Source: Natronohydrobacter sp.
GTDB lineage: Bacteria; Pseudomonadota; Alphaproteobacteria; Rhodobacterales; Rhodobacteraceae
NCBI GenBank assembly: GCA_007125005.1
Contig: SLDY01000016.1
Location: 22,579 to 86,578, forward strand
Direction: 5' to 3'
DNA length: 64,000 bases
Position numbers and translations under genes: made by a program. The notes beneath the pieces are model-generated. The model worked only from the letters and a program-made list of their open reading frames with translations, was not told where the DNA came from and did not search any database. Below, piece by piece: positions 34,192 to 45,976 of the stretch (its first letter is position 1; the number at the start of each line of letters is the position of its first letter).

Positions 34192-35541
34192 TCAGCTTTG
34201 ACCGGGCTTGGCCAGAAATGCCTCCAGCCAATGGATGTCATAATTGCCGCTCTGCACATCCGGTTCTGCAAGAAGAGCACGAAAGAGTGGAACCGAACTG
34301 TCCACTCCGTCGATGATCAGTTCGCCAAGCGCCCGATTGAGGCGGGCGAGGGCTTCTGGACGATCGCGGCCATGCACGATCAGTTTCGCGATCAGACTGT
34401 CGTAATGCGGTGGGATCGTGTAGCCCGAATAGAGTGCTGAATCCATGCGCACGCCGAGGCCGCCCGGTGCATGGTAGGTCTCGACCCTGCCGGGGCAGGG
34501 CGTGAAATTGGGAAGACGTTCGGCATTGATACGCACTTCGATGGCATGGCCATTGAGCACGAGATTGTCTTGTGTGAATGATAGCGGATGGCCGCCTGCG
34601 ACCCGGATCTGCTCGCGCACAAGATCCACGCCGAATATGGCCTCTGTCACGGGATGCTCGACCTGAAGCCGGGTGTTCATCTCGATGAAGTAGAACTCGC
34701 CATTCTCATAGAGAAACTCGATTGTGCCAGCGCCACGATAGCCAATGCGCGCGATGGCTTCGGCGCAGGTCTGCCCGATGCGGGCTCGGGTCTCGGGATC
34801 AATGGCGGGGCCGGGGGCTTCCTCAAGCACTTTCTGGTGGCGGCGCTGAAGTGAGCAGTCGCGCTCGCCCAAGTGCACGGCATTGCCCTTGCCATCACCA
34901 AAGACCTGAATTTCGATATGGCGTGGCGCGCCGAGATATTTCTCGAGATAGACTTCGTCATTGCCAAAAGCCGCCTTGCCCTCGGCGCGGGCCGTGCGGA
35001 AAGCTGTCTCAAGATCAGCCTCGCTGCGCGCCAGTTTCATGCCACGCCCACCGCCACCGGCTGTGGCCTTGATGATGACGGGATAGCCGATCTCTGCGGC
35101 GACCGTCTGCGCGGTCTCAAAATCCGGCACGCCACCCTCAGAGCCGGGCACGCAGGGCACGCCAAGAGCCTTCATAGTTTCCTTGGCAGTGATCTTGTCA
35201 CCCATCATGCGGATATGTTCAGCAGAGGGCCCGATGAACGTGATCCCATGATCCTCGACCACTTGCACGAATGCCGCGTTTTCCGACAGGAAACCATATC
35301 CGGGGTGAATTGCCTCGGCCCCGGAAATCTCGCAGGCCGAAATAATCGCCGGGACATGCAGATAGCTTTGTGATGCAGGCGCAGGGCCAATGCAGATGGC
35401 TTCATCCGCCATGCGCACATGCATTGCATCGGCATCAGCAGTGGAGTGCACAGCGACCGAGCCTATTCCCATCTCTCGGCAGGCGCGGATAACGCGCAGG
35501 GCGATCTCACCGCGATTGGCAATCAGGATCTTGTTGAACAT
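34192..35541 (-). CDS. accC: Acetyl-CoA carboxylase, biotin carboxylase subunit
   Basis: Carboxylates the biotin on AccB with ATP and bicarbonate, first half of malonyl-CoA synthesis. 449 residues, the standard length. Typical segments: [20 protein letters not shown], glycine loop [39 protein letters not shown] with metal ligands, and the AccC C-terminal domain. It follows accB by 13 bases. The subunit is distinguished from propionyl- or pyruvate carboxylases by its length and by the adjacent accB. Confidence 0.96.
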
Positions 35542-35554
35542 CCCACACCCTGCC

Positions 35555-36046
35555 TTATTCGATAATCATCAGAGGTGCGCCAAACTCGACAGGGCTGCCA
35601 TCGCTGACAAGAATACGTTTCACTGTTCCCGCGCGTGGAGCAGGAATATGGTTCATCGTTTTCATGGCCTCGATGATCATGAGTGTATCGCCTTCGGCGA
35701 CTTGCGAACCGATATTGACAAAGTTTGCAGCACCGGGTTCGGCGGCCAGATAGGCCGTGCCGACCATCGGTGACGTGACTGCACCGGGATGCTGCGCCGG
35801 ATCTGCGGGCAAGTCAGATTTCGCCGGGCCGGATTGCGCCGGCGCTGTTGCGGATACAACAGGCGCGGGAGCCGGTGCCATCTGCTGCACAGCACTGGCG
35901 CTTGAAAACTTGGATACCTTGACGTTCAGACTGTCATTTTCGCCATATTCCCGTTTGACGCTGAGTTCGGAGAGGTTGTTCTCGTCGAGAAGCTCCGCAA
36001 GGGCTTTGATAAAGGCAACATCGGCATCATTGCGGCTCTGCGTCAT
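35555..36046 (-). CDS. accB: Biotin carboxyl carrier protein
   Basis: Carrier that moves carboxyl groups between AccC and the carboxyltransferase. 163 residues starting at ATG 36046 with GAGGAT upstream; the track ORF is 79 residues too long. An N-terminal helical part is joined by an Ala/Pro linker (residues 50-90) to the biotinyl domain, where K129 in [10 protein letters not shown] is biotinylated. [14 protein letters not shown] replaces the more common PMVGTFY start. It leads the accB-accC operon and is divergent from the ScfR-like regulator. Confidence 0.95.
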
Positions 36047-36233
36047 CGGGATCCTCGTTTTTATACATGACACGGCCACCGGGGCAGCCTGCGCTTGTTG
36101 GGGCGCCTTATACTTGAGTGATCCAGCGCTGTGAAGCCGGGTTTTCATCTCTTGCGGGCGTGCGCTTGAGCAACAGAAAAACGTTTTGCGGTGACCGGGA
36201 TTTGGATAGAGATGGAATCGGGAAGGATCACAT

Positions 36234-37553
36234 ATGGCTCGGAACGCATTAACCGGAACGCGAATACGCGCTCGACGCAACATGCGTGGATTGCGACAGT
36301 CGGAGCTTGCGCGGACCGTTGGGGTGTCTCCATCTTATCTGAATCTTATTGAGCATAACCGGCGCAAGGTCGGACCAGATCTTCTGGATGCTCTGGCGCA
36401 GGCGCTGGGTGTGTCTCCTGATACACTTGCGGAGGATGGCGATGCGCGATTGGTCGAAGGCGCGCGCGCTGCTGCGTTGCGCAGTGGCGCAGACCTTGCC
36501 GATCTTGAGCGCATAGAGGAGTTTACCGGGCGGTTTCCGGGCTGGGCCAAGGTTCTCGCACAGACCCAGGGGCGCGTTGAAAGGCTGGAGCGCGTTGTTG
36601 ATCAGCTTAATGACCGCATGACGCATGACCCTTATCTGGGCGAGGCATTGCACGAGATCATCTCAGCAGTGACATCCGTGCAATCCACAGCGACAATTCT
36701 CAACGACGCACAAGAGATCGAACCGGATTGGCAACTGCGATTTCATCAAAATATCCTGCAGGATAGTGCGCGCCTCGCGGAAGGGGCTGTCGCACTTGTG
36801 AATTATCTCGATGCTGCCAAAGACGATGAGATGGGCCTTGCTGCGCCGCAGGAAGAAGTAGAATCATGGCTTGCAGAGCGGGGGTTTCATCTGAAAGAAC
36901 TCGAAACGGGGAGTTCGCCTTCAGAGGTTCGGGTCACCGATCAGATCGCGCTTTCCTCGGAAGCCTCGCGCACACTCGCGCGGCGCTGGGTCGCAAGGTT
37001 CGGGGCTGATGTGTCGGCCTTGCCGCTGGAGCCATTCGTGAGTGCCATTGACATGTACGGGATGGCGCCGGATGTTCTTGCCGAAACGTTCCAGGTTCCA
37101 TTTGACCAGATCCTGCGTCGCCTCGCATTTCTGCCGCCTGAGATATATGAGCAGCGTTCAGTGCCTGCTCCAGGTCTGGTCATATGTGACAGTTCAGGGA
37201 CGCTTGTCTTCCGTCGACCACTGCAAGGTTTCACCTTTCCGCGCTTTGGTGGCGGCTGCCCGCTCTGGCCATTGTATCAGGCACTTCAAACCCCTGATAT
37301 GCCGCTGCGCGTGCCACTGGTAACAGCTGGCCGGCTGGGGCGGCGGTTCATAGCCTTTGCTTATTGTGCACGACAGGGTCAGATGAGTTTTGATGCGCCA
37401 AGATTGCTTCAGGCCACCATGCTTGTCATCCCCGATGACGCGACTCAACATACCGATAAGCCAATGCTTTCGGTGGGGGCGAGCTGCAGGACTTGTGCCC
37501 AGCTCGATTGCCCTGCCAGGCGTGAGCCCTCGATACTGATGGGGGCTGTATGA
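36234..37553 (+). CDS. Short-chain fatty acyl transcriptional regulator (ScfR/DUF2083)
   Basis: 439-residue regulator with an N-terminal XRE helix-turn-helix (TRIRARRNMRGLRQSELARTVGVSPSYLNLIEHNRR, residues 9-45). The C-terminal half is the DUF2083/ScfR domain of RamB-like regulators that sense short-chain acyl-CoA. It ends with a cysteine set GASCRTCAQLDCPARREPS that may bind metal or act as a redox switch. It is divergent from accB-accC and upstream of the transporter-kinase operon, so regulation of acetyl-CoA or propionyl-CoA use is plausible but inferred. Confidence 0.82.
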   Translation: MARNALTGTRIRARRNMRGLRQSELARTVGVSPSYLNLIEHNRRKVGPDLLDALAQALGVSPDTLAEDGDARLVEGARAAALRSGADLADLERIEEFTGRFPGWAKVLAQTQGRVERLERVVDQLNDRMTHDPYLGEALHEIISAVTSVQSTATILNDAQEIEPDWQLRFHQNILQDSARLAEGAVALVNYLDAAKDDEMGLAAPQEEVESWLAERGFHLKELETGSSPSEVRVTDQIALSSEASRTLARRWVARFGADVSALPLEPFVSAIDMYGMAPDVLAETFQVPFDQILRRLAFLPPEIYEQRSVPAPGLVICDSSGTLVFRRPLQGFTFPRFGGGCPLWPLYQALQTPDMPLRVPLVTAGRLGRRFIAFAYCARQGQMSFDAPRLLQATMLVIPDDATQHTDKPMLSVGASCRTCAQLDCPARREPSILMGAV

Positions 37554-37712: not shown

Positions 37713-38081
37713 ATGGAGAAGCGTATTCTGGTCATTGAGGATGAGCCCAATATCTCAGAAGCATTGCGCTTCATCCTATCTCGAAACGGCTGGCAGGTGG
37801 ATGTTTCGGCGGATGGTCATGCTGCTATCGAGACCATGCGCAAAGACCCCCCTGATCTGTTAATTCTGGATGTGATGCTCCCCGGTCTGAGCGGTTTTGA
37901 TGTGCTTCGCTCGGTTCGCGAGGTCGAATGCACGCGTGACCTGCCGGTACTGATGCTGACCGCCAAAGGTCAGGGAGCCGATCGCGCCGAAGCGGAGCGC
38001 TTGGGGGTGACGCGCTTCATGACGAAGCCTTTCGCCAATGCAGAGGTGATCGCGGCCGTTCAGGATTTGGCCGGAACATGA
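37713..38081 (+). CDS. Single-domain response regulator
   Basis: 122-residue receiver with no output domain. Phosphoacceptor D53 is in LLILDVMLPG, the acidic pocket starts VIEDEPN (D10), and the conserved lysine is K105 in FMTKPFAN. The start ATG 37713 follows GAGGGAGAGGGAGGG. Its stop overlaps the next gene by four bases (ATGA), and a histidine kinase gene is third in line, so it is probably that kinase's phosphorylation partner, acting by protein contact or as a phosphate relay. Confidence 0.88.
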   Translation: MEKRILVIEDEPNISEALRFILSRNGWQVDVSADGHAAIETMRKDPPDLLILDVMLPGLSGFDVLRSVREVECTRDLPVLMLTAKGQGADRAEAERLGVTRFMTKPFANAEVIAAVQDLAGT

Positions 38082-38386
38082 AACCACCACGCAGCTCTCA
38101 GTTTGTGGCCAGAGAAAGTTACCGTATCCGGCGGTTGATGGATGCTGCACGCTTTTTGCCGGTTTTCGGGCTGATGCTTTTGCTGTTGCCGCTTATGCGT
38201 GGCACATCCGGCCCGGAGGCACCTCCTACGGCAGCCGAGTCTGTCTATCTCTTCAGTGTTTGGATAGGTCTTGTGCTCGTCGCCTTTCTGATGTCGCTTG
38301 TATTGCGCAGGACGCTTGATCCGCCGAAGTCGGCACAACCGCCTCTGCCCCAAAAGCGTGAAGCCCTTCCTGAAGCAGAGGACTAG
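38078..38386 (+). CDS. Small two-helix membrane protein, unknown
   Basis: 102 residues with two predicted helices (FLPVFGLMLLLLPLM and YLFSVWIGLVLVAFLMSLVL), separated by a short Pro/Glu-rich loop, basic N-terminus and acidic C-terminus. No known domain is recognised. It overlaps the receiver gene by four bases and ends 7 bases before the kinase start, so it is translated together with both. Its position suggests an accessory subunit of the transporter-kinase, which is inference from gene order only. Confidence 0.75.
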   Translation: MKPPRSSQFVARESYRIRRLMDAARFLPVFGLMLLLLPLMRGTSGPEAPPTAAESVYLFSVWIGLVLVAFLMSLVLRRTLDPPKSAQPPLPQKREALPEAED

Positions 38387-38393
38387 CGCGTCG

Positions 38394-41123
38394 ATGTCTT
38401 TCAACCTGCTTGTCCTGACCTGCATCGCCTATGTGATCTTGCTTTTCGCCGTTGCTTCTGCCGCCGAGCGCAGTGCCGCCGAGGGAAGAGCAAAATGGCT
38501 CCGCTCGCCGCTGATATACACGCTATCGCTGTCAGTCTATTGCACGGCGTGGACTTTCTACGGTGCCGTTGGATATGCAGCGCGTTCCGGGCTCGAGTTC
38601 ATGACCATTTACCTCGGGCCAACGCTGGTTTTTGTCGGCTGGTGGGTGATTCTGCGCAAGCTGGTGCGGATAGGGCGCGAGAACCGCGTGACCTCCATAG
38701 CTGACATGATTTCAGCGCGATATGGCAAGTCGAACCTGCTGGGCGTTATCGTCACGCTGTTATGCATTTCGGCAGGAACTCCTTATATCGCGCTGCAACT
38801 GCAATCCATTGCACAATCATTCACGGTCTTTGCCACGGATTCTGTCGGGACTGGCCTCGCCGCCGACCGTAATTTCATTGCCTTCTGGGTCGCAGCGGGG
38901 CTTGCACTCTTCACGATCGCATTTGGCACGCGCAATCTTGATGTGAACGAGCAGCATCCGGGTGTCGTAACAGCAATTGCTGTCGAGGCAGTGGTGAAGT
39001 TGTTAGCGCTGATTGCAGTTGGCGTATTTGCCGTGTGGTTTGTTGCGTCCGGGCCTGCCGATATTCTGGCCCGTATCGACGCGCAGGCCCTTCCAGAGTG
39101 GCATATACAACCTGGGCGCTGGACCGGGTTGATCCTGCTTTCGGCCATTGCCATCATCTGCTTGCCACGCATGTTTCAGGTCACAGTTGTTGAGAATACC
39201 GATGACCAGCATCTGGCAACAGCCAGCTGGGCGTTTCCGCTCTATCTCTTTCTGATCAGTCTCTTTGTCTTGCCTATCGCCGTTGTGGGGCTAGAAGTCA
39301 TGCCCACAGGGACAAATCCCGACATGTTCGTGCTCACGCTGCCGCTGCATCTTGGGCAGGATGGCTTGGCACTCTTGTCTTTTCTTGGGGGATTCTCGGC
39401 GGCGACCTCCATGGTTATCGTCGCCTCGCTGGCACTTGCGACGATGGTGTCGAACCACATCGTCGTGCCGCTTTGGCTGAAGGCGCGAGCGGTGCAGAAT
39501 CTCGATACAGGTGACATGCGGGTTCTGGTGCTAAGCGTCCGTCGGCTATCGATCGTGCTCGTGCTGTGCTTTGGCTACATCTACTATGTCATTTCTGGTG
39601 GCTCTGCTGCCTTGGCAGCTATAGGGCTCATTGCTTTTGTCGGCGTCGCGCAGATCATGCCTGCGCTTCTGGGCGCGCTGTTCTGGCGGGGTGCAAGCCG
39701 AACCGGTGCAGCCATTGGCCTTACAATTGGTTCGCTGCTGTGGTTCTATACGTTGTTCCTCCCCAGTTTTGGGCCAGATGTCATCCTTTCAGCTCGGGTG
39801 ATGGAGCAGGGGTTGTTTGGGCTGTCATGGCTCAGGCCCTACAGTCTATTCGGGTTGACTGCGCTTGATCCGTTGCTGCATTCGCTCTTCTGGTCGCTCC
39901 TGCTGAATGCGCTGGCCTTTTGCGTAGGCTCATTCGTTAGCTTCCCGAGCCCCATTGAGCGTGTGCAAGGCGCTCTCTTTGTCGATATTTTTGACCGGCC
40001 CGGCCCGGCGCGAAGCTGGACCCACCCCGCTGCCGAGGCTGAGGACCTCCTTCCGATGGCGCAGCGAATCCTTGGGCAAAGCGAAGGCCAGAGTTTCTTT
40101 CGTGTGCAGGCGGAGCTGCAAGGAAAACAGGGCTATCTACCTGATATTACGCCAGAGTTTCTGGAGGCGCTGGAACTGAAGCTTTCGGGCTCGGTCGGTG
40201 CCGCAACGGCCCATGCGATGCTTGCCCAGACAGTGGGTACAGCTGTTGTCTCGGTCGAGGATCTGATGGCAGTTGCCTCCGAGACGGCGCAAATCATGGA
40301 GTATTCTGCGCAGCTTGAGGCGAAATCAGAAGAACTGAGTCGCACTGCGCGCAAGCTGCGTGACGCCAATGAAATGCTTCAGAAGCTCTCTGTGCAGAAA
40401 GATGCCTTTCTCAGTCAGATCAGCCACGAGTTGCGTACTCCGATGACATCGATTCGTGCTTTCTCCGAGATCCTTATGGATGGCGAGGGCATGTCTGACG
40501 AGGAGCAGCATCATTTTGCGCAAATCATTCATGATGAATCAATCCGTTTGACACGGCTGCTGGATGATCTGCTTGACCTGAGTGTTCTTGAACATGGACA
40601 GGTTCAGCTCAATATCGGTCCGGCATTGCTGCGCGACCTGATCGACAAATCGATCACCGCCTCCAATTCGGTGCAGGCGGAGCGCAAATTCCGCTTTACG
40701 CGGAGCCGCGACCCCGAGACGATTGAGATCGTGACGGATGCGGGACGCTTGACGCAAGTCTTCATCAATATTCTGTCGAATGCGCGAAAATACTGCATCT
40801 CGGATGACCCCCAAATGAAGATTTCAGTGCGACGGCGCGATGGTATGATCGAGGTCGATTTCACTGATAACGGAGAGGGCATCCCGCGTGACAAGCAGGC
40901 GCTTATCTTCGAGAAATTCTCGCGCCTGACAGATTCCATGCAGGCAGGCGGCGCAGGACTCGGCCTCGCGATTTGCCGTGAGATCATGCATAATCTGGGC
41001 GGTGACATAACCTATGTGCCGGGGCAGGGGGGGGCATGCTTCCGGGTGAGTTTCCCGCTGGAACTTTCACCGCGCGAGGCTTCGCAGAAACCACTTGGCA
41101 AGGAAACAGAAGCTGTCGAATAG
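38394..41123 (+). CDS. SLC5 transporter-STAC-histidine kinase fusion
   Basis: 909-residue membrane sensor. Residues 1-520 form about 13 helices of the sodium/solute symporter family (TFYGAVGYAARSGLEFMTIYLGP, VTSIADMISARYGK). Residues about 550-640 fit the STAC domain that links such transporters to kinases. A coiled coil leads to the dimerisation helix with phosphoacceptor H678 in FLSQISHELRTPM, then the ATPase with N box LSNARKYC and G box DNGEGIPRD. No PAS domain is seen, unlike CbrA. It would sense a solute by binding or transport and signal through the adjacent receiver. Start ATG 38394 follows GAGGA. Confidence 0.87.
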   Translation: MSFNLLVLTCIAYVILLFAVASAAERSAAEGRAKWLRSPLIYTLSLSVYCTAWTFYGAVGYAARSGLEFMTIYLGPTLVFVGWWVILRKLVRIGRENRVTSIADMISARYGKSNLLGVIVTLLCISAGTPYIALQLQSIAQSFTVFATDSVGTGLAADRNFIAFWVAAGLALFTIAFGTRNLDVNEQHPGVVTAIAVEAVVKLLALIAVGVFAVWFVASGPADILARIDAQALPEWHIQPGRWTGLILLSAIAIICLPRMFQVTVVENTDDQHLATASWAFPLYLFLISLFVLPIAVVGLEVMPTGTNPDMFVLTLPLHLGQDGLALLSFLGGFSAATSMVIVASLALATMVSNHIVVPLWLKARAVQNLDTGDMRVLVLSVRRLSIVLVLCFGYIYYVISGGSAALAAIGLIAFVGVAQIMPALLGALFWRGASRTGAAIGLTIGSLLWFYTLFLPSFGPDVILSARVMEQGLFGLSWLRPYSLFGLTALDPLLHSLFWSLLLNALAFCVGSFVSFPSPIERVQGALFVDIFDRPGPARSWTHPAAEAEDLLPMAQRILGQSEGQSFFRVQAELQGKQGYLPDITPEFLEALELKLSGSVGAATAHAMLAQTVGTAVVSVEDLMAVASETAQIMEYSAQLEAKSEELSRTARKLRDANEMLQKLSVQKDAFLSQISHELRTPMTSIRAFSEILMDGEGMSDEEQHHFAQIIHDESIRLTRLLDDLLDLSVLEHGQVQLNIGPALLRDLIDKSITASNSVQAERKFRFTRSRDPETIEIVTDAGRLTQVFINILSNARKYCISDDPQMKISVRRRDGMIEVDFTDNGEGIPRDKQALIFEKFSRLTDSMQAGGAGLGLAICREIMHNLGGDITYVPGQGGACFRVSFPLELSPREASQKPLGKETEAVE

Positions 41124-41246: not shown

Positions 41247-42590
41247 ATGTCCAACAGTCCTACCACTCCCGGCATCGTGCCTGCGCGCCTTCATCCCGAG
41301 GATTACCCGCGCCATTTCGATGATCTTTATCCCGATTTTGATCCGCATGAGGCAAGGGTCGCTGCGGATCGGTGCTATTTCTGCCATGATGCTCCCTGCA
41401 TCACGGCCTGTCCGACAGAGATCGATATTCCTCTCTTCATTCGCCAGATCCAGAACGGCCAACCCGAGGCGGCAGCGAAGACGATCTTTGATCAGAACAT
41501 TCTTGGCGGTATGTGCGCGCGGGTGTGCCCCACAGAAACCCTTTGCGAAGGTGCTTGTGTGCGGGAGGCCGCTGAAGGCAAGCCTGTCGAGATCGGCCGT
41601 CTGCAACGCTATGCAACCGAGACGCTTATCGCCAAGGGCGCGCATCCTTATCAACGCGCAGCGTCAAGCGGCAAGCGCGTGGCCGTGGTAGGGGCAGGGC
41701 CTGCAGGGCTTGCTTGTGCGCACAGGCTCGCGATGCATGGCCATGAAGTCACTGTGTTTGATGCGCGCGAGAAACCCGGCGGGCTGAACGAATACGGCAT
41801 CGCGGCCTACAAGACTGCACATGGATTTGCTGCGGCCGAAGTCGACTGGCTGATGCAGATCGGCGGGATTGAACTGCGGCAAGGCTGGCGGCTTGGCAGC
41901 GATGGGACACTTGGCGATCTCAAGGCAGAGTTCGACGCGGTCTTCCTTGGGATTGGTCTTGCCGGGGTCAATGCGCTCGGGATCGCGCAGGAAGATGCAC
42001 CGGGCGCGCGCGACGCAGTCGATTTCATCGCCGAATTGCGACAGACCCCCGATGTCTCGACTGTGCCTATCGGGCGGCATGTCGTTGTGATCGGGGGCGG
42101 CATGACTGCTGTTGACGCTGCTGTGCAGTCGCGGCTTTTAGGGGCGGAGCATGTGACCATGGTCTATCGTCGCGGGCGCGAGGATATGAGCGCCTCCGAT
42201 TACGAGTTGAGCCATGCCGCTAATGAAGGTGTGAAGATCATTACAAATGCGATGCCTGTGGCGATTCATGCAAATGGTGCGCTGCGCGAGATCGAATTCG
42301 CCTATACACATGCAGGAGAGACGGGGCTGGAGCCCACCGGCGAGACGTTCCGGCTCAAGGCAGATCAGGTTTTCAAGGCGATCGGGCAGATGCTGGAGGG
42401 CGCGCCCGAGGAGCTTGCGCTCGACGGGCGCAAACTTGCGGTCGATTCCGAGGGGCGTACATCGCTTGAGGGCGTCTGGGCCGGCGGCGATTGCACGGGC
42501 GGCGGCGAAGACCTGACAGTGACTGCTGTCGCGCAAGGCCGCGATGCGGCCATGAGCATCCACGCCTATCTGACTGGGACTGGTGGCTGA
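41247..42590 (+). CDS. preT: Dihydropyrimidine dehydrogenase subunit PreT
   Basis: Flavoprotein that takes electrons from NADH for pyrimidine reduction, 447 residues. The N-terminal segment has cysteines for iron-sulfur clusters (CYFCHDAPCITACPTEID and CARVCPTETLCEGACV), followed by two dinucleotide-binding loops (VVGAGPAGLACAHRLA and VVVIGGGMTAVDAA) and AGGDCTGGGEDLTVTAV for FAD. It resembles the small subunit of glutamate synthase, but the neighbour preA decides the assignment. Together PreT and PreA turn uracil or thymine into the dihydro form. preA follows after 26 bases. Confidence 0.93.
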   Translation: MSNSPTTPGIVPARLHPEDYPRHFDDLYPDFDPHEARVAADRCYFCHDAPCITACPTEIDIPLFIRQIQNGQPEAAAKTIFDQNILGGMCARVCPTETLCEGACVREAAEGKPVEIGRLQRYATETLIAKGAHPYQRAASSGKRVAVVGAGPAGLACAHRLAMHGHEVTVFDAREKPGGLNEYGIAAYKTAHGFAAAEVDWLMQIGGIELRQGWRLGSDGTLGDLKAEFDAVFLGIGLAGVNALGIAQEDAPGARDAVDFIAELRQTPDVSTVPIGRHVVVIGGGMTAVDAAVQSRLLGAEHVTMVYRRGREDMSASDYELSHAANEGVKIITNAMPVAIHANGALREIEFAYTHAGETGLEPTGETFRLKADQVFKAIGQMLEGAPEELALDGRKLAVDSEGRTSLEGVWAGGDCTGGGEDLTVTAVAQGRDAAMSIHAYLTGTGG

Positions 42591-42616
42591 TCGCCCGCCA
42601 TACGGAGACATATATC

Positions 42617-43918
42617 ATGGCAGACCTGACTACGAATTTCATCGGCATAAAATCCCCCAACCCATATTGGCTCGCCTCAGCGCCGCCGACCGACAAGGAA
42701 TACAACGTCGTGCGCGCTTTCAAGGCGGGCTGGGGCGGTGTTGTCTGGAAGACGCTCGGCGCCGAAGGCCCGCCGGTGGTCAATGTCAACGGCCCGCGTT
42801 ACGGGGCAATCTGGGGCGCGGATCGCCGACTTCTGGGGCTGAACAATATCGAACTGATCACCGACCGCCCGCTGGAGGTCAACCTGCGCGAGATCAAGCA
42901 GGTCAAGCGCGACTGGCCTGACCGGGCAATGGTGGTCTCGCTCATGGTGCCTTGCGATGAGGAAAGCTGGAAAGCGATCCTTGCGCGTGTGGAAGAGACC
43001 GAAGCCGATGGGGTTGAGCTCAACTTCGGCTGCCCGCATGGCATGTCCGAGCGTGGCATGGGTTCTGCCGTGGGGCAGGTGCCGGAGTATATCGAGATGG
43101 TGACGCGCTGGGTAAAACAGCACTCGCGCATGCCCTGCATCGTGAAGCTGACGCCGAATATCACTGACATTCGCAAACCGGCCGAGGCTGCGAAACGCGG
43201 CGGCGCGGATGCGGTCAGCCTGATCAACACGATCAATTCGATCACATCGGTCAATCTCGACACCTTCAGCCCCGAGCCGATGATCGATGGTAAAGGCGCG
43301 CATGGCGGTTATTGCGGGCCCGCCGTGAAACCGATTGCGCTGAACATGGTGGCAGAGATCGCGCGCAGTCCTGAAACTGCGGGCCTGCCAATCTCCGGCA
43401 TCGGTGGTGTAACAACATGGCGCGACGCAGCGGAATTCTTGAGCCTTGGTGCGGGCACAGTTCAGGTCTGCACTGCTGCCATGACCTATGGCTTTGGGAT
43501 CATCAAGGAGCTGACTGCGGGTCTTTCGCTCTACATGGATCAGAAGGGCTTTACCTCGGTTGATGATGTTGTTGGCCGTGCCGTGCCGAATGTGACCGAT
43601 TGGCAGTATCTCAACCTCAATCATGTTACCAAGGCGCGGATCGATCAGGATCTCTGCATACAGTGCGGGCGTTGCTTTGCCGCCTGCGAGGACACCTCCC
43701 ATCAGGCGATTTCCATGTCATCCGATCGGGTCTTCGAGGTGATTGACGCGGAGTGCGTGGCCTGCAATCTCTGCGTGAATGTTTGCCCTGTGCAGGACTG
43801 CATCACGATGGAGACCTTGCCGAAGGGGGCGACTGACCCGCGCACCGGTGAAGTTGTCGGCGATTACGCCAACTGGACGACGCATCCAAACAATCCGATG
43901 GCGAAGGCTGCGGAGTGA
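42617..43918 (+). CDS. preA: Dihydropyrimidine dehydrogenase subunit PreA
   Basis: Catalytic subunit that reduces uracil and thymine, 433 residues. The FMN barrel resembles dihydroorotate dehydrogenase (ITDIRKPAEAAKRGGADAVSLINTI; catalytic-loop cysteine in FGCPHGMSERGMG) and is followed by two [4Fe-4S] motifs, CIQCGRCFAAC and CVACNLCVNVC. ATG 42617 is chosen over the track start since the upstream part is preT in another frame. The stop codon directly abuts that of the convergent rutR, with no spacer. First enzymatic step of the pyrimidine route whose later steps are encoded next. Confidence 0.95.
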   Translation: MADLTTNFIGIKSPNPYWLASAPPTDKEYNVVRAFKAGWGGVVWKTLGAEGPPVVNVNGPRYGAIWGADRRLLGLNNIELITDRPLEVNLREIKQVKRDWPDRAMVVSLMVPCDEESWKAILARVEETEADGVELNFGCPHGMSERGMGSAVGQVPEYIEMVTRWVKQHSRMPCIVKLTPNITDIRKPAEAAKRGGADAVSLINTINSITSVNLDTFSPEPMIDGKGAHGGYCGPAVKPIALNMVAEIARSPETAGLPISGIGGVTTWRDAAEFLSLGAGTVQVCTAAMTYGFGIIKELTAGLSLYMDQKGFTSVDDVVGRAVPNVTDWQYLNLNHVTKARIDQDLCIQCGRCFAACEDTSHQAISMSSDRVFEVIDAECVACNLCVNVCPVQDCITMETLPKGATDPRTGEVVGDYANWTTHPNNPMAKAAE

Positions 43919-44569
43919 TTAGGGAGCGAGAAGGCGGGAATAGAGATGCTCGAGAAACGCCTCGGCTCCTTCGTGGGGCTCATGCCCCGCACCGCGTATC
44001 AGCGCAATCTGGGCGGCAAAATCCGCATAATGCTGCGTGAGCGCCCAGATAGAGAAGATCAGGTGATACGGATCGACCGGCGCGATGCGGCCTTGATCGA
44101 CCCAGCCGCGCAGGGTAATCGCGGTCTGGTCCACCAGAAGGCGCAAATCATCGCGGATAAAGCCCTCGATTCGGGGAGCGCCCTGCAGGATCTCATTGGC
44201 GAAAAGTCTGCTCTCGCGCGGAAAGTCGCGCGACATCTCAAGCTTGCGGCGCATATACTCCATGATTTCCGTGCGCGGATCGCCTTGGGGATTGATCAGA
44301 CGCAGTGGCGCCAGCCATGTATCGAGAAGCTGCGTCAGCAATTCGCGGTGGATGTCTTCTTTGCCATCGAAATAGTAAAGAAGATTCGGCTTAGACAGTC
44401 CGGCTTCGGTTGCGAGCTGGTCGAGGGTGGCGCCGCGAAAACCATGCGTGGAAAACACTTCAAGGGCTGCCTCCAGAATGATCTGGCGATTGCGCTTCTG
44501 GATGCGCGAGCGAGTGACTGGCCGCGCGCTGCTGGAATTCCGGGCGGTCGAGGATCGGGGTACGTTCAT
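43919..44569 (-). CDS. rutR: TetR family pyrimidine regulator RutR
   Basis: 216-residue TetR regulator closely resembling E. coli RutR. The helix-turn-helix is FRGATLDQLATEAGLSKPNLLYYFDGKEDI and the ligand domain keeps the RutR pattern (LDTWLAPLRLINPQGDPRTEIMEYMRRKLEMSRDFPRESRLFANEIL, then HLIFSIWALTQHYADFAAQI). RutR binds uracil or thymine and then releases DNA. A near-consensus box, TTGACTGGATGGTCAA, lies 15 bases upstream of its start, toward the divergent ureidopropionase gene, so it likely controls itself and the catabolic operon. Confidence 0.93.
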   Translation of the reverse strand: MNVPRSSTARNSSSARPVTRSRIQKRNRQIILEAALEVFSTHGFRGATLDQLATEAGLSKPNLLYYFDGKEDIHRELLTQLLDTWLAPLRLINPQGDPRTEIMEYMRRKLEMSRDFPRESRLFANEILQGAPRIEGFIRDDLRLLVDQTAITLRGWVDQGRIAPVDPYHLIFSIWALTQHYADFAAQIALIRGAGHEPHEGAEAFLEHLYSRLLAP

Positions 44570-44584
44570 CTTGGGACAAGCTTC

Positions 44585-44600
44585 TTGACTGGATGGTCAA
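44585..44600. promoter_or_regulatory. RutR box
   Basis: TTGACTGGATGGTCAA matches the known RutR consensus TTGACCANNTGGTCAA at 12 of 14 defined bases. It is in the gap between rutR and the divergent ureidopropionase gene, the expected place. Confidence 0.85.
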
Positions 44601-44725
44601 AATTGATAGCGTTCAGGCGGATCGAGTGCAAGCAGAGCGCAGCAGGGTGCGAAAGCTCTCGTGCATATTGCCTTGTATGAACATAAAAGAACGGCAGCGC
44701 ATGCCGTCATGACAGGGAGTTACAG

Positions 44726-45976
44726 ATGTCTGCACTTGGTGCGAACCTCAAGGTGAATGGCGAGCGGCTTTGGGACAGCCTCATGGAGATGGCGCAAATC
44801 GGTCCTGGCGTTGCCGGAGGCAATAATCGCCAGACCCTGACCGATGAGGATGGCGAGGGGCGCCACCTGTTCAAGCGCTGGTGCGAAGAGGCAGGCGCGA
44901 CAGTGGCGGTGGATGAGATGGGCACTATGTTCGCCCGCTTTGAAGGCACCGATCCCGAAGCGTTGCCGGTCTATGTGGGGAGCCATCTGGACACACAACC
45001 GACAGGCGGCAAATATGACGGGGTTCTGGGGGTTCTCGCCGGGCTGGAAGTCATCCGCTCGATCCGCGATCTTGGCGTCAAGACGCGGCGATCCATCGTT
45101 GTAACCAACTGGACCAATGAAGAGGGCACACGCTTTGCGCCCGCGATGCTGGCCTCGGGTGTGTTCGCGGGTGTGCATGAGCGCGACTGGGCCTATGCGC
45201 GGGTCGATGCGCAGGGCAAACGCTTCGGCGATGAGCTTAAGCGCATTGGCTGGAAGGGTGATGAACCCGTGGGCAAGCGCAAGATGCATGCGTTTTTCGA
45301 GTTGCATATCGAACAGGGCCCGATCCTCGAGGCCGAGGGCCAGGATATCGGCGTCGTTACCCATGGTCAGGGGTTGCGCTGGATCGAATGCACCGTGAGC
45401 GGGAAGGGCCAGCACACCGGCTCGACGCCGATGTATATGCGCCGTAATGCCGGCCGGGGGCTGGCGCGCGTGACCGAACTGGTGCATGAGATCGCGATGA
45501 AGCATCAGCCCGATGCGGTAGGCGCGATCGGCCATATCGACGTTTATCCCAACAGCCGCAACATCATTCCGGAAAAGGTTGTTTTCACGATAGACTTTCG
45601 TAGCCACAAACTTGATGTGCTACAGGCAATGGAGGCTGAATTGCTGGCCCGCGCGCCGGGTATATGCGCCGATATCGGCGTGAAATTCACCGCTCGCAGC
45701 AGCGGCCAGTTCGATCCGCCTGCCTTTGACGAAACCCTGCTGGGCCGCATCCGCGACGCAGCCGACAGGCTGGGCTATAGCCATATGGATATCGTCTCGG
45801 GCGCGGGTCATGATGCTTGTTGGATCAACCGGATCTATCCGACAGCGATGATCTTCTGCCCTTGTGTCGATGGGTTGAGCCATAATGAAGCTGAGGAAAT
45901 CTCACCCGCATGGGCTGAAGCTGGGACGAATGTGCTCTTGCACGCCGTGCTGGAGACGGCAGAGGTGGTCGGCTGA
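44726..45976 (+). CDS. Beta-ureidopropionase (N-carbamoyl-beta-alanine amidohydrolase)
   Basis: Metallo-amidohydrolase of the M20 family, 416 residues. Metal ligands are in VGSHLDTQPTGGKYDG (His and Asp), NWTNEEGTRF (Glu) and FELHIEQGPILE (His), with the C-terminal metal histidine in SGAGHDACWI. The enzyme would hydrolyse N-carbamoyl-beta-alanine to beta-alanine, CO2 and ammonia, the last step after HydA. Allantoate and N-carbamoyl-L-amino acid hydrolases share the fold; the gene neighbourhood favours the pyrimidine substrate. It follows the RutR box and leads the hydA-ABC operon. Confidence 0.88.
   Translation: MSALGANLKVNGERLWDSLMEMAQIGPGVAGGNNRQTLTDEDGEGRHLFKRWCEEAGATVAVDEMGTMFARFEGTDPEALPVYVGSHLDTQPTGGKYDGVLGVLAGLEVIRSIRDLGVKTRRSIVVTNWTNEEGTRFAPAMLASGVFAGVHERDWAYARVDAQGKRFGDELKRIGWKGDEPVGKRKMHAFFELHIEQGPILEAEGQDIGVVTHGQGLRWIECTVSGKGQHTGSTPMYMRRNAGRGLARVTELVHEIAMKHQPDAVGAIGHIDVYPNSRNIIPEKVVFTIDFRSHKLDVLQAMEAELLARAPGICADIGVKFTARSSGQFDPPAFDETLLGRIRDAADRLGYSHMDIVSGAGHDACWINRIYPTAMIFCPCVDGLSHNEAEEISPAWAEAGTNVLLHAVLETAEVVG

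Follow-up and report, generated by a model that had tools for sequence, protein, structure and literature searches.

The window analysed here is a 64,000-nucleotide stretch of a Natronohydrobacter sp. contig (SLDY01000016.1, positions 22,579 to 86,578), in which a small gene lies between the genes of a receiver and a histidine kinase. The receiver (37713-38081, forward strand, 122 aa; Pfam PF00072, E=2.9e-26) is a single domain with no output domain, and upstream of it is a 439-aa XRE regulator of the ScfR/RamB type (36234-37553, forward strand; Pfam HTH_3 and ScfRs PF09856). The small gene (38078-38386, forward strand) encodes a predicted CbrX-like two-helix membrane protein of 102 aa, MKPPRSSQFVARESYRIRRLMDAARFLPVFGLMLLLLPLMRGTSGPEAPPTAAESVYLFSVWIGLVLVAFLMSLVLRRTLDPPKSAQPPLPQKREALPEAED, and is followed by a 909-aa SLC5-STAC-S-helix-DHp-CA histidine kinase (38394-41123, forward strand; Pfam HisKA and HATPase_c). 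The sequence-only reading of this DNA had proposed the small protein as a possible subunit of the SLC5-kinase, a proposal that is supported by its partnership with the kinase and by profile ties to CbrX, the small peptide partner of the kinase CbrA.

The ATG of the small gene (38078-38080) overlaps the TGA stop of the receiver (38079-38081) as ATGA, and its TAG stop (38384-38386) is 7 bases 5' of the kinase ATG (38394). The open reading frame, the overlap and the gap had all been claimed before and were confirmed on the sequence. A putative Shine-Dalgarno sequence of the kinase, AGAGGA as read from the sequence, falls within the final codons of the small gene. Coupling of its translation to both the receiver and the kinase is plausible because of the ATGA overlap, the 7-base gap and the position of this motif. 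The overlap and the gap would also suit a mere translational-coupling leader, which opens the start site of the kinase while the peptide itself is inactive. There is a precedent in P. putida, in which lost cbrX translation lowers CbrA and expression of CbrA is restored by a peptide of equal length read in a shifted frame, the cbrX-cbrA coupling being independent of the peptide sequence (PMC6591292).

A leader is, however, difficult to reconcile with the conservation of the protein. The 29 homologues compared share eleven invariant residues (M1, F9, R12, Y15, R16, R19, D22, R25, P28, P38 and W62). The Rhodobacterales signature F-x2-R-x2-YR-x2-R-x2-D-x2-R-x2-P is located ahead of helix 1, and W62 is within helix 2. 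In a single pairwise comparison, with a 58%-identical homologue, dN was 0.33 and dS about 3.3, which is close to saturation, giving a ratio of about 0.10. The small gene is under purifying selection and, together with the invariant residues, the low ratio indicates that the sequence of the small protein matters, beyond its mere translation.

An AlphaFold2 model of the small protein (mean pLDDT 85) has helices at residues 10-40 and 51-80, in line with the two helices expected from the sequence-only reading. Positive charges flank the hairpin, ahead of helix 1 and past helix 2, and agree with an N-in/C-in orientation. The protein is therefore predicted to be a membrane hairpin with both ends in the cytoplasm. 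A fold search with this model returned uninformative helical-hairpin matches alone.

The SLC5 region of the kinase (residues 3-460) matches the CbrA chain 10ed_A at E=3e-72. Although the CbrA structure matches, the Pfam SSF model does not match the SLC5 domain (38394-40373), therefore the transporter part would go unnoticed if annotation were by Pfam only. Residues 500-655 match the CbrA linker/STAC region with 93% probability, and the kinase model contains four helices at 549-614, as expected of STAC. Fold matches of the kinase model include 7wmv and 8hb0, which are MAP17-bound human SGLT1/SGLT2 entries. MAP17, a single helix, is another small membrane protein that binds an SLC5 transporter; this is an analogy and no sequence relation is claimed. 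Lys202 of the kinase (codon 38997-38999) is aligned with Lys196 of CbrA, which occupies the Na2 site (PMC13022988), and is invariant in 26 homologues.

Within Rhodobacterales, homologues of the small gene (E<=1e-3) were found in 189 of 198 genomes, representing 84 of 89 genera, as a single copy in each. The kinase was found in 194 of the 198 genomes, and all four kinase-less genomes were also without the small gene. Five genomes contain the kinase with no small-gene match (G006, G008, G110, G169 and G175). Two of these, G006 and G008, were inspected, and both carry a divergent two-helix ORF at the kinase locus. The order receiver, small gene, kinase was kept in 30/30 loci. As to whether homologues always accompany SLC5-kinase genes, the small gene immediately precedes the kinase gene, in the same orientation, in all 134 genomes for which both coordinates were given. 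Among 80 named loci collected with the kinase alignment, 79 were assessable, one starting at a contig end, and a profile match was located directly upstream of the kinase in at least 76. In two of the three misses the small gene is in fact present, L216 having masked bases and L273 a wider spacing. The kinase locus of Jannaschia rubra (L264) seems to be without the small gene, a seeming natural loss.

One further locus, L238 (JAFKDC010000037.1), is filed under the actinobacterium Enemella evansiae and contains a kinase locus like those of Rhodobacterales (61% identity). This contig is likely to be a contaminant or mislabelled.

The kinase was also searched at the class and phylum level, and the upstream DNA was then read for small ORFs. 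In other alphaproteobacteria and in beta- and gammaproteobacterial families, each of the non-hybrid kinases examined has a two-helix ORF of 65-150 residues next to it, and CbrX adjoins CbrA of Pseudomonas, the beta/gamma class and Pseudomonas assignments of the surveyed genomes being made by sequence resemblance. By a fixed hydropathy rule, a two-helix ORF was located 5' of the non-hybrid kinase in 28/30, 26/26 and 8/8 cases in three groups, and 5' of CbrA in 9/9. Judged by their sequences, the two cases that the rule passed over in the first group are true homologues. Under the same rule, 33 of 3000 random positions of the window (1.1%) scored positive. In contrast, no such ORF was detected directly upstream of hybrid CrbS-type kinases (0/19; L070-L080, L092-L096 and L098-L100), which share the SLC5 and kinase core and carry a fused C-terminal receiver (PMC5715377). 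Across alpha-, beta- and gammaproteobacteria the two-helix design is retained at 13-50% identity, which also argues against the leader, as a leader needs no conserved hairpin.

The small protein scores below the cut-off of every Pfam and NCBIfam model, so the earlier statement that no family is recognised still holds. Matches to DUF6611, PilS-TM and SLAC1 were weak, below cut-off, and were taken as membrane-composition noise; neither DUF485 nor DUF997 was among the Pfam matches at E<=5. An alignment of 26 small proteins, excluding the Rhodobacterales members and CbrX (alignment A3), was used as a profile, and this profile recovered the small gene of the window (E=5.6e-4) together with 14/14 other Rhodobacterales genes in the sample. 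In two other genomes it also picked out small ORFs that lie 5' of CbrA-type kinases (E=6.9e-5 and 2.6e-4), and these ORFs were read as CbrX, for example RLLIIFILGTYLLSPALIDWWSEGGRAWYRPYLVWLGLIALSYW. Searched against 177,635 PDB sequences, it placed CbrX (10ed_X) first, at E=0.29.

Profile-profile comparison, in which reversed controls gave <=6%, connected the Rhodobacterales proteins with A3 at 98% probability (E=8.7e-15) and A3 with CbrX at 95-97% (E=1.5e-8 to 5e-10). Compared directly, the Rhodobacterales profile and CbrX gave 41-64%, and CbrX matched a wide profile that included Rhodobacterales at E=3. There is thus good but indirect evidence that the small protein is a distant relative of CbrX, through intermediate sequences. 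The part common to all groups in these comparisons is the helices, not the N-terminal motif.

The small proteins also resemble DUF3311 (PF11755), more loosely than they resemble CbrX, and the resemblance is carried entirely by the non-Rhodobacterales members: A3 matched DUF3311 at 94%, and the Rhodobacterales profile by itself at 5%. The best DUF3311 match among relatives of the small protein was at E=0.0039. DUF3311 proteins likewise have two helices, and their genes immediately precede those of SLC5 proteins, often with a 4-base overlap; the partner, however, is a plain MctP-type symporter without a kinase. Membership of the small protein in DUF3311 was rejected, there being no Pfam match and the partner here being an SLC5-kinase. 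DUF4212 (PF13937) is also a two-helix partner of SLC5 symporters, and a DUF4212 gene is present in this genome (G000:C115), but no sequence relation was detected; kinship was rejected at 0.25-0.6% probability with the Rhodobacterales profile and at most 10% in any comparison.

Unrelated gene settings, which would speak against a kinase subunit, were looked for. Matches of the A3 profile in two genomes (G617 and G488) are inside larger YihY-like ORFs and were taken as chance. The sole other match away from a kinase adjoins an SLC5 transporter: in G519 the small ORF and the gene of a plain SSF symporter overlap (L158:1973-3626; E=9.2e-6). The kinase-associated family therefore extends, in at least this case, beyond kinases. 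Of nine SLC5 proteins encoded 3' of a DUF3311-type or A3-type small gene, eight match Pfam SSF, and the ninth does not at E<=1e-5. A search of the literature on small subunits of SLC5 symporters found nothing of use, and the earlier remark that accessory subunits of transporter-type kinases are poorly known is a fair one.

The profile link to DUF3311, whose genes are 5' of SLC5 symporters, could also mean that the small protein is a leftover transporter subunit, retained by linkage after its role in sensing was lost. The dispensability of CbrX for growth on histidine (PMC13022988) would fit with this. However, the small gene is under purifying selection and is retained next to nearly all non-hybrid kinases, which makes a leftover very improbable.

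CbrX is a 58-residue peptide that was resolved by cryo-EM bound to the SLC5 domain of CbrA (PDB 10ed; preprint PMC13022988). It co-purifies with CbrA and forms a hairpin with both ends inside, on TM3/TM8 of the SLC5 domain, and in the authors' AlphaFold model of the CbrA dimer two CbrX peptides are located between the SLC5 domains (PMC13022988). As cbrX can be deleted without loss of growth on histidine, its authors leave the role of CbrX open (PMC13022988). Together with the frame-shift result in P. putida (PMC6591292), this weakens the case for a structural role in signalling, even for CbrX. Growth of the deletion strain would also be expected from a leader, but the physical CbrX-CbrA complex is against it and, with the conservation described above, makes a pure leader rather unlikely for the small gene here.

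Like CbrX (PP5704; PDB 10ed chain X), the small protein is a small two-helix membrane protein encoded 5' of, and apparently coupled to, an SLC5-STAC kinase. At 58 aa, CbrX is shorter than the 102-aa small protein, and is without the long basic N-terminal segment or the C-terminal tail. The systems around the two also differ. CbrA contains a PAS domain and is paired with CbrB, a sigma-54-type regulator (PMC6591292, PMC13022988), whereas the kinase of the window has no fused receiver and no recognised PAS domain, and its locus contains a stand-alone receiver and an adjoining ScfR-type regulator.

The 5' partnership with the kinase, the chain of homology to CbrX and the match of the kinase to 10ed_A argue for a subunit of the CbrX type at the SLC5 domain of the kinase, and we consider it likely that the small protein forms such a complex. 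With its translation coupled to that of the receiver and of the kinase, it would insert as an N-in/C-in helical hairpin and pack against the SLC5 domain, the contact face probably being TM3/TM8, as for CbrX. Our best guess is a stabilising or dimerising role, in which the small protein would stabilise the SLC5 domain and/or the kinase dimer. STAC and the S-helix could then relay the conformation of the transporter to the DHp domain.

The receiver was upstream in 78/79 named loci, and a receiver gene is just 5' of the small gene in nearly all alphaproteobacterial loci. The N-terminal segment of the Rhodobacterales proteins is strongly conserved and basic. It could therefore be proposed that the small protein is an anchor or adaptor for the single-domain receiver, its basic N-terminal motif keeping the receiver close to the kinase, and is not a transporter subunit. 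However, CbrX and the beta- and gammaproteobacterial small genes examined keep the kinase without such a receiver neighbour, and since it is the helices that all groups share, we regard an anchor as unlikely, somewhat more so than a leader.

Upstream of the receiver, an ScfR-type regulator was present in 18/18 regions examined and is probably the output of the system. In Paracoccus denitrificans Pd1222, the ScfR homologue Pden_1785 likewise adjoins a two-component system (PMC10370305). The regulator of the window contains a DHp (HisKA)-like segment (residues 131-184; 36624-36785, forward strand), located between its DNA-binding domain and its ligand domain. In hhalign this segment matched the DHp domain of the kinase with 97.7% probability and 30% identity over 54 columns, reversed controls being <1%; the aligned stretches are LHEIISAVTSVQSTATIL in the regulator and SHELRTPMTSIRAFSEIL in the kinase. 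The segment is kept in 18/18 relatives read, with His in 17 of 19 aligned sequences and Tyr in the other two. This suggests a route from the kinase through the receiver to the regulator, by docking or phosphotransfer at the DHp-like segment. A brief literature search found no description of such a segment in ScfR-type regulators.

With the preferred CbrX-type subunit, a broader and more tentative model can be drawn. Non-hybrid SLC5-STAC kinases could be general two-subunit receptors, in which a DUF3311-derived small subunit acts as a membrane dimer or coupling element, and the receiver-fused CrbS kinases would have dispensed with the subunit. In Rhodobacterales, the basic N-terminal segment might contact STAC or the receiver, and the receiver might act on the DHp-like domain of the ScfR-type regulator. 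This combination as a whole is possible, though we would give it well under even chances.

This kind of system was already known; what is new is the breadth of the family, its absence beside hybrid kinases and the link to transporter subunits. Earlier, conservation of CbrX was described for Pseudomonas and Azotobacter (PMC6591292); a CbrX-like partner now appears to be a general feature of non-hybrid SLC5-kinases in alpha-, beta- and gammaproteobacteria, no longer a one-genus curiosity. The hybrids, which have no such gene beside them, provide a built-in comparison for the non-hybrid kinases, and systems other than those of Pseudomonas are now offered for testing the function of the small subunit. 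The link to transporter subunits suggests that transporter-kinases inherited a two-subunit transporter.

Judged from ORF translations, the region downstream of the kinase (41247-45976) contains genes like those of reductive pyrimidine degradation, including PreT/PreA-like proteins, a TetR-type regulator and a Zn-dependent amidohydrolase. Divergent from the ScfR-type regulator, on the reverse strand (34192-36283), are genes whose translations resemble a biotin carboxylase and a carrier protein (accC/accB), which could possibly be a regulatory target of the ScfR-type regulator.
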